From Cryobacterium sp. N22 (GTDB taxonomy: Bacteria; Actinomycetota; Actinomycetes; Actinomycetales; Microbacteriaceae), in the NCBI RefSeq assembly GCF_002929555.1, contig NZ_PJJP01000039.1:124001-188000 (forward strand): a stretch of 64,000 bases of DNA, read 5' to 3'. Positions 27,612-38,988 of the stretch are shown here, piece after piece. The first letter of the stretch is position 1, and every line of letters begins with the position of its first letter. Both the position numbers and the translations under genes were made by a program. Under the pieces are notes generated by a model. That model was not told the origin of the DNA, made no database searches, and was given only the letters and a program-made list of their open reading frames with translations.

Positions 27612-29705
27612 TTACAGCAGCTCCGGGTCGTCGAATCGTACTCTGAGTGTAGGCGCAGGGCGGAACGCGGCGCCCTTGGGCTTGCGTCGGCTGGCCGCGT
27701 TGCGCACGATCGCGGCCTTGAGGGTGCGGGCGACCTCGTCGCCCAGCGGGTAGCCGAAGCGCACGATGGCGCGCACCAGCGCGGGCCCGCCGGGTTTCTG
27801 GCCGGGGCCGGCCGGGTCGTGACTGACCGGGCCGAGCACGTCGAGCCCCGGCAGCTCGGCCAGTGACTCGATGGCGGTCTCCACCTCGGCGCTGGTTCCG
27901 GTGACGGAGGCCACCCGCACCGCCGGCGGGAAGCGCAGCTGGCGGCGATCGGCGAGTTCGGCGGCGGCATACGGCCCCGGCTGCCAGGTGTTGAGGGCGT
28001 GGGCGAGGGCCCCGCCCACACCGGCGAGCATGACGGAGGCGCCCGGAGCGGCCAGGGCGGCGGCGTTGGCCCACCAGCGCAGGCAGTCCTCCCCCACCCG
28101 CAGGGACTCGCGGGCGAGCATCCGTTCGCCGTCGAGCAGCAGGATCGCGCTGTAGCCGTTGCGGGGTATCGGTTCGGCGCCGCGCGTGGCGATCACCAGG
28201 GCGGGTTCTGGCCCGATGGTCTGCACGGTGTGCTCGCCGTCGGCGACGATCACCCTGGAGCCGGGGAAGGCCCGGCCGAGCTCCTCGGCGGTGCGGCCGG
28301 TGCCGACGGTGACCACGCGCAGGTTGGTGGCCTCGCAGTGCGAGCAGTGCCAGCCGGCGGCGAGGTGGCCGCACCAGCGGCAGGCGGGGGTGGCATTGGC
28401 ATGGGTGAGGGCCAGCGGACCCTGGCATTGGGTGCACCGGGCGGATTGCCCGCAGGAGCGGCAGGCCAGCATCGGCGCGTAGCCGGGGCTGGCGACCTGC
28501 ACCAGCACGGGACCGCTTCGCACGGCCTCCTTCGCGGCGAGCCACGCCGCTGACGGGATGCGGGCGGCCCTGGCCTGCGCGTCCGGCTCGGACTGGAAGG
28601 TGGTCGGGATCACCCGGGGGTGGCTGTCACGGGTGGGGTGCAGGGCGCGCAGCCAACCGATCTCGACAAGGCGTTCGGTCTCGACGCTCCGTGAGTGGCC
28701 GATGAAAACGAGCGCGCAGTCGGCCGCCTCCCGGCGGATTAGCGCGGCGTCGCGAGCGTGCACGTACGGGCTGAGCTGCTCGCCGTAGAGCGGGTCGCCA
28801 TCGTCCCACAGCACGATCAGGCCGAGGTCGTGAGCGGGGGCGTACACGGCGGACCGGTTGCCGAGGATGATCCTCGGCCGGCCCTCGAGCAGGGTGAGGA
28901 AGCCGCGGTAGCGGTCGGGATTGCTCTGCCTGGCATCGACGCGGACGACGTCGTCTGCGGGCGCCAGCATCGCCAGGGCGGCCTGAAGCTGGTCCTGGTC
29001 GCGGAAGTCCGGCACCACGAGGATGCTGCTCTTGCCCTGACGCAGGGCCGACACGGCGAGCTCGGCCATGGTGATCGCCCAGGTGCCCACGGTGCTGCCG
29101 CCATCGTCCGGGCCGGGCAGGCGGACCAGGCTGGGCACCGCGGCGATGCAGACCCGTAGCCGGTCGGCCACGATGGTGCCGAGTGTTTCGGGCGGATACT
29201 CGGCGAATCCGGGTTCGGCGAGCGTGCCGGCAGCGTCCGCCGGTTGCGGGGCCGGCGCATCGGGCGTGGCGGCCCGCGCGGCCAGCCAGGCCTTCTCCAC
29301 CCGCACGGCGCGGGGCGGCACGGCCAGTCTCACGATGTCGCTCGCGTTGCCGGCCGCCCGGTCGGCCAGGCGCCGGGCAAGCTGCCAGACGGCGTCGGTG
29401 AGCACGGGCACCGCCGACACTATCGAGTCGACCGGGCTGAGCTTGCCGCTGTAGCCGGTGTCGGCGCCGCCGATGCCGTCCAGGGTCGCCGCACCGGCCG
29501 GGTCGGCCACAGCGTGCTGCGGGTCGATCAGCTCGATCAGGTAGCCGTCGGCCACCCGGTTCGCCGAGCGCAACGGAACCCGAACCCGCACCCCGGGTTG
29601 GGCGAGGTGCGCCAGCTCGTCGGGGATGGCGTAATCAAAGAGATGGTCGAGCTGCGGTAGCGGCGAGTCGATCAGCACCCTCGCGATGAGGCCGGTGCGA
29701 GTCAT
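27612..29705 (-). CDS. priA: PriA-like primosomal protein N' with degenerate helicase motifs
   Basis: 697 residues, ATG start. The N-terminal DNA-binding domain (ARVLIDSPLPQLDHLFDYAIP, VRVRVPLRSANRVADGYLIE) and the zinc-binding Cys pairs between about residues 410 and 460 (CRSCGQSARCTQC, CRWCGHLAAGWHCSHC) identify PriA. The Walker A GxxGSGKT motif is absent: the equivalent region reads TWAITMAELAVSALRQGKSS. The DEAH box is replaced by LWDDGDPLYGEQ. It is therefore probably a non-helicase PriA, as I recall for actinobacterial relatives. Its likely role is replication restart through DNA binding. It lies between metK and fmt. Confidence 0.92.
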   Translation of the reverse strand: MTRTGLIARVLIDSPLPQLDHLFDYAIPDELAHLAQPGVRVRVPLRSANRVADGYLIELIDPQHAVADPAGAATLDGIGGADTGYSGKLSPVDSIVSAVPVLTDAVWQLARRLADRAAGNASDIVRLAVPPRAVRVEKAWLAARAATPDAPAPQPADAAGTLAEPGFAEYPPETLGTIVADRLRVCIAAVPSLVRLPGPDDGGSTVGTWAITMAELAVSALRQGKSSILVVPDFRDQDQLQAALAMLAPADDVVRVDARQSNPDRYRGFLTLLEGRPRIILGNRSAVYAPAHDLGLIVLWDDGDPLYGEQLSPYVHARDAALIRREAADCALVFIGHSRSVETERLVEIGWLRALHPTRDSHPRVIPTTFQSEPDAQARAARIPSAAWLAAKEAVRSGPVLVQVASPGYAPMLACRSCGQSARCTQCQGPLALTHANATPACRWCGHLAAGWHCSHCEATNLRVVTVGTGRTAEELGRAFPGSRVIVADGEHTVQTIGPEPALVIATRGAEPIPRNGYSAILLLDGERMLARESLRVGEDCLRWWANAAALAAPGASVMLAGVGGALAHALNTWQPGPYAAAELADRRQLRFPPAVRVASVTGTSAEVETAIESLAELPGLDVLGPVSHDPAGPGQKPGGPALVRAIVRFGYPLGDEVARTLKAAIVRNAASRRKPKGAAFRPAPTLRVRFDDPELL

Positions 29706-32320: not shown

Positions 32321-32578
32321 CTATTCGACGATGGGCTTCGAGGTGAGCTTGTCCTCGTTGATTTCGCGGAGGGCCACGGAGAGCGGCTTGTCGTCAACGG
32401 TGGAGTCGACGAGCGGTCCGACGTTGTCGAACAGGCTGCCTTCGTGAAGGTCTGCGTAGTAGTCGTTGATCTGGCGGGCGCGCTTGGACGCGAAGATCAC
32501 CAGGGCGTACTTGGAATCGACCTTGGTGAGCAGGTCGTCGATGGGCGGGTCAATGATGCCAGTGGGCTTGTTGGGCAC
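32321..32578 (-). CDS. rpoZ: RNA polymerase omega subunit
   Basis: 85 residues. The omega subunit aids RNA polymerase assembly. The body [20 protein letters not shown] and [21 protein letters not shown] matches actinobacterial RpoZ. The start is placed at GTG ([17 protein letters not shown]) because a strong AAGGAG ribosome-binding site lies nine bases upstream. That site itself falls within the longer in-frame reading beginning at ATG 32605 or 32596, so the longer starts are unlikely. gmk ends 138 bases upstream and coaBC begins 30 bases downstream. Confidence 0.93.
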
Positions 32579-32716
32579 GCTGTCACACTCCTTCATGCTG
32601 TTCAAGCAAAATGTACGGGCTGCGCGGTGTCACACCTGAGGTTTCCGTGGCCGGAAACCCGACATGAACCACGTTGATGCGCCTATTCGACGCGAGGAAT
32701 TCAAGTACAGCGGGCG

Positions 32717-33637
32717 CTACGACGGCGCCGATGTCTTGCGAATCTGCATCAAGTCTACGACTTCTTCGGCGGCTTCGGCCACGTCGCTGTTCACGACGCG
32801 GTAATCGAACTCGCCCTGGGCAGCCAATTCGAGCTTCGCGGTCTCCAGCCGGCGGCTCTGTTCGGCCGAATCTTCGGTGCCGCGGCCGATCAGGCGGCGC
32901 ACCAGTTCGTCCCAGGTGGGTGGCAGCAGGAAGACCAGGCGGGCCTCGGGCATTGCCCGGCGCACCGACCGGGCACCCTGGATGTCGATCTCGAGCAGCA
33001 CGCTGTTACCGTCGGCGATGGCCGCCTCGACGGGGCCGCGCGGGGTGCCGTACCGGTAGGCGTTGTGCACGGTGGCGTACTCCAGGAGTTCGCCGGCCTC
33101 GATCATCCGATCGAACTCGGCGTCGTCGACGAAGAAGTAGCTGACACCCTCGACTTCGCCGGCCCGCGGCGCCCTGGTGGTCGCGGACACCGACAGGTGC
33201 ACCTCGGGGTGGTGCTCGCGGATGTACGCCGCGACGGTGCCCTTGCCGACCGCCGTCGGTCCGGCGAGGACGACGAGCCTGGAGTCGGCCGCTCCCCTGC
33301 GGGCGGTGGGCCGGGCGGCGAGGAAGTCGCGCAGCCTGTCCCGCTGGTGCTTGCCGAGGCCACCCAGGCGTTTGGACGGCGAGATCTCCAGCCGGGTCAT
33401 GATGCGTTGCATCTTGGTCACCCCGATGGCCGGGATGCTCACGAGAAGCTCGGTCACCCGCAGCCGGCCTTCGACGCCGTTGGGTTCCTTGACGGCGGCG
33501 GCGAGCACGTCGAGCGAGGTGCGTTCACCGGCCGCGACCTGTGCCTTCACGGCGGCGCGGGCTCGTCGGGCCGCTACGGCGGCGCGGGAGGCCGCGACGC
33601 GGTCGACGTCGGGTGGGGTAGGGCGATTATCAGCCAC
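32717..33637 (-). CDS. gmk: mIHF-guanylate kinase fusion
   Basis: 306 residues, against about 185-210 for ordinary Gmk. Residues about 13-108 match mycobacterial integration host factor mIHF: an AARRARAAVKAQVAAGE helix and then GVTKMQRIMTRLEISPSKRLGGLGKHQRDRL, the helix-two-turn-helix DNA-binding part. A short linker (PTARRGAADS) leads to guanylate kinase: P-loop GPTAVGKGT (126-134), SVSATTRAPRAGEVEGVSYFF (GMP binding) and LLEIDIQGARSVRRAM. In mycobacteria mihF and gmk are adjacent separate genes. Here they are one frame, with no ATG, GTG or TTG codon in the linker. The start overlaps the pyrF end by 8 bases. Confidence 0.93.
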   Translation of the reverse strand: MADNRPTPPDVDRVAASRAAVAARRARAAVKAQVAAGERTSLDVLAAAVKEPNGVEGRLRVTELLVSIPAIGVTKMQRIMTRLEISPSKRLGGLGKHQRDRLRDFLAARPTARRGAADSRLVVLAGPTAVGKGTVAAYIREHHPEVHLSVSATTRAPRAGEVEGVSYFFVDDAEFDRMIEAGELLEYATVHNAYRYGTPRGPVEAAIADGNSVLLEIDIQGARSVRRAMPEARLVFLLPPTWDELVRRLIGRGTEDSAEQSRRLETAKLELAAQGEFDYRVVNSDVAEAAEEVVDLMQIRKTSAPS

Positions 33638-34534
33638 GGGTCGCTCCAGCTTCGGTTAATCGGCGGGTTATCTCATCGGCCACACGGTCGGGACCGGCGG
33701 ATAAAACGCTGCGCGATTCACTCACGATAACGCCTTGAGCGTATCCGCCAAACAAACCGGCCAGATCGGTGGGATTCGCACCCTGGTGACCGAAGCCCGG
33801 CGCGAGCACCGGGGTGACGACAGGGGCGGCCGGTGCGTGGATGTCGATGCCGAAGTCGGCCAGCGAAACCGTGGCCCCGAGGACCACTCCGACCGACCCG
33901 AACGTGCCGCTGGGCGACTGGCCGGCGTTGATGGCGGCGACCTGGTCGAGCACCGACGCGGCGACGGAGCTGCCCGCCTGCGGTCCGGTTGCGAGCACGG
34001 CCTGCTGCAGGTGGGCGGCCTCCGGATTGGAGGTGGCGGCGAGCAGGAACAGCCCCTTGCGGTTGACCGCGGCGACGTCCATGGTGCTGGCGAGCGAGCC
34101 GACCCCCATGTACGGGTTCACGGTGATGGCGTCGACCTCGAGCGGCGAGCCCTGGCTCAGCCAGGCCTGGCCATAGGCTTCGACGCTGGTGCCCAGGTCG
34201 CCCCGCTTGACGTCGGCGATGACCAGCAGCCCGGCCGCCCGTGCGTCGGCGAGTACCCGCTCCAGCGCGAGGTAACCGGCGGAGCCGAACCTCTCGTAGA
34301 ACGCGACCTGCGGCTTGACGATGCCCGCGCGCCCCGCCGCGGCGGCGACGACCGCCCGGCCGAAGCTCTCGGCCCCCGAGGCGGTGTCGGGAAGGTTCCA
34401 GTCGGTCAGCAACCAGGAGTGCGGGTCGATGCCGACGCAGAGCCGGCCGAACCGGGCGAAGGCACCGTGCAGGCGTGCGCCGAAGGTGTCGGCGACGTCG
34501 ACCGAATCGACTGTGCTCTCTGCGCCGGCTGGAG

Positions 34535-34538
<4 letters not shown>
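33630..34538 (-). CDS. pyrF: Orotidine 5'-phosphate decarboxylase (long, type 2)
   Basis: 302 residues, GTG start overlapping the carB stop by 4 bases. Last step of UMP synthesis. It belongs to the longer OMP decarboxylase class used by mycobacteria: [12 protein letters not shown] near the N-terminus, catalytic [19 protein letters not shown], then VNPYMG and PGFGHQGA. Its 3' end overlaps gmk, linking pyrimidine and guanine nucleotide genes on one transcript. Confidence 0.95.
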
Positions 34539-37821
<3,283 letters not shown>

Positions 37822-37822
<1 letters not shown>

Positions 37823-38988
37823 TACTTGGCGTCTCCTGCTCCGGCGGCCGCGTGCGCGACCACCACATCCCTGAACCTGTCGAAAAGATAGTTGGCGTCG
37901 TGCGGGCCGGCCGCGGACTCCGGGTGGTACTGCACCGAGAAGGCCGGGATGTCCAGGCACCTGATGCCCTCGACGACCTGGTCGTTGAGGCTGTAGTGGC
38001 TGACCTCCACGCGGCCGAATCCGGTCGTGGATTCGCTGATGCCCTCGATGGGCATGTCCACGGCGAAGCCGTGGTTCTGCGAGGTGATCTCGACCCGGCC
38101 GGTGGCCTTGTCGAGCACCGGCTGGTTGATGCCGCGGTGGCCGAACGGCAGCTTGTAGGTGCCGAAGCCGAGGGCGCGGCCCAGCAGCTGGTTGCCGAAG
38201 CAGATGCCGAAGTACGGCACGCCCGCGCGCAGCACCTCCTGCAGCAGCGTCACGTGCGCGTCGCTGGCGGCGGGATCGCCGGGTCCGTTCGAGAAGAACA
38301 GGGCGGTCGGGTTGAGCGAGAGCACGTGCTCCGCGGTGATCGACTGCGGGAGCACGAGAACCTCGAAGCCACGCTCGGCGAGGTAGTTGAGGGTGGAGGT
38401 CTTCACTCCGAGGTCGAGCACGGCGACAGAACCGATGCGATCGCCCTGCGCCGGAATCGAGTACGGCTCCACGGTGGAGACCTCGTCGGACAGGTTGCGG
38501 CCGCGCATGCTGGCCCCGCCGCGCACGAGTTCGAGCTGTTCGCCCTCGGAGAGCTCATAGTCCTCGCCCGAGAAGATGCCGCTGCGCATGGAACCGAGCG
38601 AGCGGATGTGCCGGGTGATGGCGCGGGTGTCGATGCCGCTGATGCCCACGACGCCGTTCGACTCGAGGTCGGCGTCGAGGGTGCGCTGGGAGCGGAAGTT
38701 CGACGGCACCCGGGCGGGCTCGCGCACCACAAATCCGGAGACCCAGATGCGGGAGGATTCCATGTCCTCGTCGTTGGCGCCGGTGTTGCCGATGTGCGGC
38801 GCGGTCATCAGCACGATCTGGCCGGCGTAGGACGGGTCGGTGAGCGTCTCCTGGTAGCCGGTCATGCCGGTGGCGAAGACGATCTCGCCGAGAGTCTGGC
38901 CGAGGCTGCCGTAGGCACGTCCCACGTATCGGCTGCCGTCTTCGAGGACGAGCACGGCCGGGGCCGGTGTGGTTGTTGGGTAGCTCAC
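37822..38988 (-). CDS. carA: Carbamoyl-phosphate synthase small subunit
   Basis: 388 residues, GTG start. Glutamine amidotransferase subunit supplying ammonia to CarB. The class-I GATase nucleophile is in [18 protein letters not shown], with catalytic His-Glu in [15 protein letters not shown]. The N-terminal CarA domain has [22 protein letters not shown]. It is followed by carB with a one-base overlap and preceded by the PH-like membrane protein gene 3 bases away. Confidence 0.98.

Follow-up and report, generated by a model that had tools for sequence, protein, structure and literature searches.

The actinobacterial nucleoid protein IHF and guanylate kinase (Gmk) are encoded by one fused gene in Cryobacterium sp. 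N22, and the same architecture spans the family Microbacteriaceae, where 181 of 195 sampled genomes with a match carry it. The product is likely to be bifunctional, with an IHF-type DNA-binding domain and a GMP kinase held on a flexible tether like "beads on a string", and to have come about through loss of the mihF stop codon. An earlier note on this DNA had described the fusion in a single genome. Three observations go beyond it, namely a reshaped IHF half, five genera without IHF, and a possible re-split species.

The fused gene was found in an open reading frame analysis of the window, which is the whole stretch of 64,000 nucleotides that was analysed. It lies on the minus strand at 32717..33637 and comprises 306 codons, from a GTG start at 33637 to a stop codon at 32719-32717, with a product of 306 amino acids. 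An actinobacterial IHF domain (mIHF/sIHF type, S13-like H2TH) occupies residues 12-105 (33323..33604, minus strand) and was recognized by the NCBIfam model NF041260 (actino_IHF) with 76.7 bits against a cut-off of 60. The Pfam model PF22525 matched this S13-like H2TH domain with 53.4 bits against a cut-off of 27. A tether of approximately residues 106-119 follows (33281..33322, minus strand) and leads into the guanylate kinase domain at residues 120-297 (32747..33280, minus strand). The kinase domain carries the P-loop GPTAVGKGT at 126-134 and scored 211.5 bits with TIGR03263 (guanyl_kin, NCBIfam) against a cut-off of 160.45; it matched Pfam Guanylate_kin as well. Thus, the reading of this frame as mIHF plus Gmk in 306 residues was confirmed by NF041260 and TIGR03263, both above their cut-offs. 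The earlier note had raised a sequencing error joining two frames as a way in which this reading could fail. Such an error was ruled out across the genus because a single stop-free match spans both halves in 56 of 57 Cryobacterium genomes, the source genome included. The genome (4.06 Mb in 39 contigs) gave one match each to the IHF and Gmk families, both of them the fused gene, and searches with both families at the thresholds used found no second copy of either in it.

Profile matches identified carA, carB, and pyrF as same-strand neighbors upstream of the fused gene and rpoZ, coaBC, metK, and priA downstream. The end of pyrF (33630..34538, minus strand; TIGR02127, 255.3 bits) overlaps the start of the fused gene by 8 nt, and rpoZ, encoding omega, lies on the other side (32321..32605, minus strand; TIGR00690, 72.3 bits). 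The overlap bears out the coupling to pyrF that had been proposed, but the further proposal that the gene joins purine and pyrimidine synthesis was not upheld, as carA-carB-pyrF upstream amounts to an ordinary operon neighborhood. carA is overlapped by the longest carB frame (34535-37960), whose first residue lies 46 positions ahead of the CarB model; carB probably starts inside this frame. The PriA-like protein at 27612-29705 scored 811.5 bits with NF011453, just below the cut-off of 812. According to PMC6155035, mihF is followed by gmk and rpoZ in M. tuberculosis, an order common to the fused locus and in agreement with the earlier statement that mihF and gmk are separate adjacent genes elsewhere.

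The kinase half appears to be a complete enzyme. Among solved structures it is closest to M. tuberculosis Gmk 1znw (E 4.5e-59), and it superimposes on 1s4q with a TM score of 0.91 by target length at 55% identity (Foldseek). All 50 matches listed in the Foldseek search were Gmk. An alignment of 45 fused proteins showed twelve residues of the kinase half without any variation: G126, P127, G131, K132, R155, R158, Y167, E186, T198, D218, R252, and R263. We take the first ten of these to be the P-loop and GMP-site residues of guanylate kinase. The fusion's kinase half therefore shares both the family match and the active-site residues with Gmk of M. tuberculosis (Rv1389, 1s4q/1znw). It differs from Rv1389 in having a DNA-binding-type domain at its N terminus, and no free Gmk was found in the genome.

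The IHF half aligns over nearly its whole length with mIHF (Rv1388; 6tob, E 4.6e-15) and with sIHF (SCO1480; 4itq, E 2.1e-11; 6bek), and its helices in the AlphaFold model fall at residues 13-36, 41-50, 61-67, 73-83, and 96-108. mIHF and sIHF are separate proteins of ~105 residues, whereas the fusion is joined to Gmk and has G92 and K89 where unfused homologues mostly have arginine. How far does the IHF half resemble a free IHF? Residues were compared between 94 fused and 41 unfused sequences, a set without frame-split or duplicate loci. R24, R27, A28, K31, R60, G72, and Q98 were invariant in all 94 fused loci, and R24, R27, K31, R60, G72, and Q98 also in the IHF half of the 45 aligned fused proteins. 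Other positions had shifted. Position 92 (window 33362-33364) is G in 92 of 94 fused loci and R in 28 of 41 unfused ones. For position 89 the counts are 90 of 94 with K and 33 of 41 with R; this K, like the R that 89 of the 94 fused loci have at position 90, keeps the site basic. Position 60 is R in every fused locus versus K in 37 of 41 unfused sequences, and at position 35, 59 of 94 fused loci have A, compared to K in 39 of 41 unfused sequences. The stretch 89-92 corresponds in the alignment to RRLR of M. tuberculosis mIHF, and the arginines of this H2TH loop are presumably needed for DNA binding. The replacement of R by G at position 92 suggests that DNA binding may be altered. Judged from these alignments, the IHF half appears systematically changed at several basic positions, a feature that the earlier note did not contain. 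Two divergent fused relatives (G074 and G089) reached only 57.8 and 55.3 bits with NF041260, below its cut-off of 60. Of five distance bins in between-family comparisons, four gave fused pairs a higher ratio of IHF to Gmk distance than split pairs (1.30-1.74 versus 1.09-1.98), where the pairs are not independent and the split set includes two frame-split loci of the family. Relative to the kinase, the IHF half thus appears to have diverged somewhat further in fused pairs. The residue shifts and the divergence together indicate an IHF half that is conserved and still basic and not simply interchangeable with free mIHF.

These changes bear on a reading in which the IHF half is no longer a nucleoid protein and serves as an N-terminal accessory domain of Gmk, acting on stability, oligomer state, or RNA contact. 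The changes at mostly basic positions (92 from R to G, 35 from K mostly to A) fit it, as do the higher distance ratio in four of the five bins and the absence of IHF from 12 genomes that keep the kinase. However, none of the 94 fused loci deviates at R24, R27, K31, R60, or Q98, and the IHF half in Cryobacterium has a dN/dS as low as that of the kinase. This reading, which overlaps in part with the bifunctional one, seems unlikely.

The distribution of the fusion was followed through the family, as the earlier note had proposed. In an evenly drawn Microbacteriaceae sample of 199 genomes, 195 gave a match; the four without one are assemblies that are 59-88% complete. All of the 150 matches listed span both halves, 136 of them stop-free and 14 with stops. 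The stops were considered as a sign of non-fusion and rejected, because all 14 loci proved fused once their frames were read. Forty-four of the 45 further matched genomes were examined: 30 are fused, one (G205) is fused across a contig break and is counted within the 181, 12 have the kinase only, and one (G068) is frameshifted within the IHF half in an assembly that is 86% complete and 5% contaminated. The 14 genomes outside the 181 are therefore the 12 with kinase only, G068, and the one matched genome beyond these 44 (G195).

No fusion was found outside the family in the loci examined. The named loci are the best 80 of 576 confirmed ones, and among these all 37 loci that NCBI ranks in Microbacteriaceae are fused. 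Two metagenome-assembled genomes without a family rank are fused as well, one of which (L213) is a contig of family member G152. None of the remaining 41 of these best 80 loci is fused; 39 are split and two have gmk alone in the stretch read. One of the two gmk-alone loci (L246) has no family rank. A phylum sample of 149 genomes gave 147 with a match, 146 of them outside Microbacteriaceae, although a strongly diverged fused IHF half could escape where only the kinase matched. Among the matches listed, the 25 from outside the family that covered both domains all had a stop inside; the matches of three genomes were not among these. All 20 outside-family regions that were read directly were split. 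A stop-free match over both domains was found in none of 23 genomes of other families and in none of the 16 matched genomes (of 18) of family f20. Among the genomes examined, then, the fusion was seen only in Microbacteriaceae. An apparent independent fusion in one phylum group (f32), with open frames of ~296 aa, was rejected because mihF there had been read out of frame.

The split loci indicate how the fusion could have arisen. The kinase domain starts at most 188 nt past the mihF stop in 39 of 39 named split loci, and the two genes share a frame in 12 of them. Joining them would take no more than a small deletion or the loss of a single stop codon. In the outgroup family f20 (L082-L087), mihF and gmk are in the same frame with a TGA between them in 10 of 16 genomes, one of which has further stops. 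This arrangement is one step from fusion. A careful Gmk tree was built on 70 rows selected out of 229. It placed 25 of the 26 split rows in one group (82/89) and needed five changes among fused, split, and no-IHF states, with the no-IHF rows in three places. A quick tree of 210 rows was less tidy, with eight such changes. Neither a single clade for all 26 split rows (p-AU 0.548) nor one for the no-IHF rows (p-AU 0.547) was rejected. A single origin of the fusion is therefore compatible with the trees and not proven by them, and the IHF half may have been lost once or several times.

The IHF half was absent from 12 genomes of five genera (g32, g35, g87, g92, and g102) in which the kinase was retained. 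In each of these loci (L076-L079, L081, L100, L101, and L105-L109) pyrF lies directly before a lone gmk. Nine of the 12 genomes are 1.1-1.7 Mb in size. A search for IHF elsewhere in these 12 genomes gave best NF041260 matches of only 13.8-20.1 bits. These weak matches were rejected as IHF candidates, as 11 of the 12 lie in frames of 126-165 aa and were taken for ribosomal S13. Three of the genomes are 78-84% complete, so the absence of IHF elsewhere is less sure for them. A different departure from the fused state is seen in one Cryobacterium genome (G021; L066, ~1456-1510): the reading frame changes between the halves, and stop and start overlap as GTGA within the tether. In length, the locus differs from its relatives by a net amount not divisible by three, and the flanking pyrF and rpoZ are open. 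Either an assembly error or a natural re-split would account for this locus, and one species may thus have re-split the gene.

Selection acts differently on the parts of the fused protein. Among 23 Cryobacterium loci (Nei-Gojobori, pairs with dS of 0.2-1.5), median pairwise dN/dS was 0.084 for the IHF half (234 pairs), 0.42 for the tether (195 pairs), and 0.097 for the kinase (249 pairs). Both halves are therefore under strong purifying selection in the genus and the fast-evolving tether much less so. Its length also varies: counted with the first kinase strand it measures 15 to 48 codons in 94 loci and exactly 20 in 54 of them. L111 (G211) has an Ala/Gly-rich tether of 48 codons, first kinase strand included, versus ~20 typically. 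The AlphaFold model has a mean pLDDT of 92, a pLDDT of 56 over residues 111-120, and a pTM of 0.65. Two confidently predicted domains with a low-confidence linker are consistent with rigid domains in no fixed arrangement.

Can the kinase be made on its own from the fused gene? The earlier note had seen no start codon from residue 104 to the P-loop, and this was borne out: no ATG, GTG, or TTG occurs in the window gene between codons 81 and 145. The closest start-like codons before this interval, ATG80 and ATG76, lie within the IHF half. ATG76 has an SD-like sequence upstream with a duplex of -6.3 kcal/mol, compared to -5.6 at the GTG start, so that internal initiation at ATG76 or ATG80 may occur in Cryobacterium. 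Among the 94 fused loci, a start-like codon is present at position 76 in 44 and at position 80 in 36. Within the tether (residues 107-119), ATG, GTG, or TTG occurs in only 23 of the 94; an internal kinase start in the tether is therefore not conserved. These data bear on the reading of a passive fusion, in which the joined protein is cleaved, or translation of the kinase also begins internally, leaving separate proteins as in other actinobacteria. The flexible tether of the model, the SD-like sequence before ATG76, and the start-like codons at 76 and 80 speak for it, but no start position is common across the family and the tether lacks a start-like codon in 71 of 94 loci. We consider a merely passive fusion improbable. 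Proteolysis of the exposed tether of the model could nonetheless release the kinase.

The earlier note had suggested that GMP kinase activity may be placed on DNA by the fusion, or nucleoid binding tied to the GMP/GDP state, and a regulatory coupling between the halves is conceivable. The occupancy of the kinase site by GMP, GDP, ATP, or (p)ppGpp would alter DNA binding, or DNA would alter kinase activity, and the state of the nucleoid would follow guanine nucleotide status. Such coupling could add to the bifunctional reading. Some Gmk enzymes are sensitive to (p)ppGpp, which counts in its favor. Further support comes from the retention of the fusion in 181 of 195 genomes of the family sample although re-splitting seems easy; within the genus, no more than one of the 57 may have re-split. 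However, the tether of 15-48 codons evolves fast and was modeled with low confidence, the pTM of 0.65 does not point to a fixed interface, and the kinase occurs alone in five genera. The variable, low-confidence tether and the lone kinase of those genera imply that any coupling is not indispensable to the kinase. Taken together, coupling of this kind is doubtful.

The bifunctional, flexibly tethered protein remains the best explanation. Loss of the mihF stop would have joined the neighboring genes mihF and gmk (in the order pyrF-mihF-gmk-rpoZ) in an ancestor of the family. The IHF-type H2TH half would bind DNA without sequence specificity, the complete guanylate kinase half would convert GMP and ATP to GDP and ADP, and a flexible tether of about 14 residues would join them as two independent domains. 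Allosteric cross-talk between the domains would not be needed. The layout of the gene, its distribution, and the selection on its parts are shown here; we infer that both halves are active and that the chain stays uncut. It would follow that much of the cellular GMP kinase is nucleoid-associated, in a 1:1 ratio with the IHF domain. The alternative readings overlap with this one in part, and the probabilities given to all of them add up to more than one.

How much of the fused protein is made? mIHF of M. tuberculosis is reported to be essential and to rank in the top ten proteins by abundance, and deleting it was polar on gmk and rpoZ (PMC6155035). For msIHF, sequence-independent binding to DNA and high mobility are described (PMC10028186). 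Should the fusion retain the abundance of mIHF, GMP kinase would be produced at the levels of a nucleoid protein. In codon usage, the fused gene appeared closer to its metabolic neighbors than to ribosomal genes (scaled medians -0.33 and -0.13, with background at 0 and ribosomal genes at 1), in a weak comparison where the ribosomal signal was too faint and the split genes were widely scattered. In this comparison, 45 of 60 genomes were scored; eight had too little sequence, one had no ribosomal match, and six presumably had no hit. An IHF-Gmk fusion was not described in the literature covered on IHF or mIHF together with guanylate kinase, or on guanylate kinase in Microbacteriaceae or Tropheryma whipplei, a coverage that mostly leaves out subscription papers. 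NF041260 is typed "equivalog_domain", which suggests that its curators expect IHF within longer proteins, and longer IHF proteins may already sit in annotation unremarked.

The fusion locks a nucleoid protein and a GMP kinase in a 1:1 ratio across a large bacterial family. One far-reaching and rather improbable possibility is that the nucleoid protein acts as a carrier of the only GMP kinase of the cell. GDP would then be made on the chromosome, close to replication and to RNA polymerase (with rpoZ as the next gene), and DNA compaction would be tuned by whether GMP or an alarmone occupies the kinase. If so, the change from R to G at position 92 would be an adaptation that weakens or redirects DNA binding. 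The family offers a natural experiment on whether nucleotide synthesis on DNA, or a common expression level of a packaging protein and an enzyme, changes chromosome organization. Ready comparisons are provided by the genera without the IHF half, the possible re-split species, and the neighboring families in which the two genes are separate.
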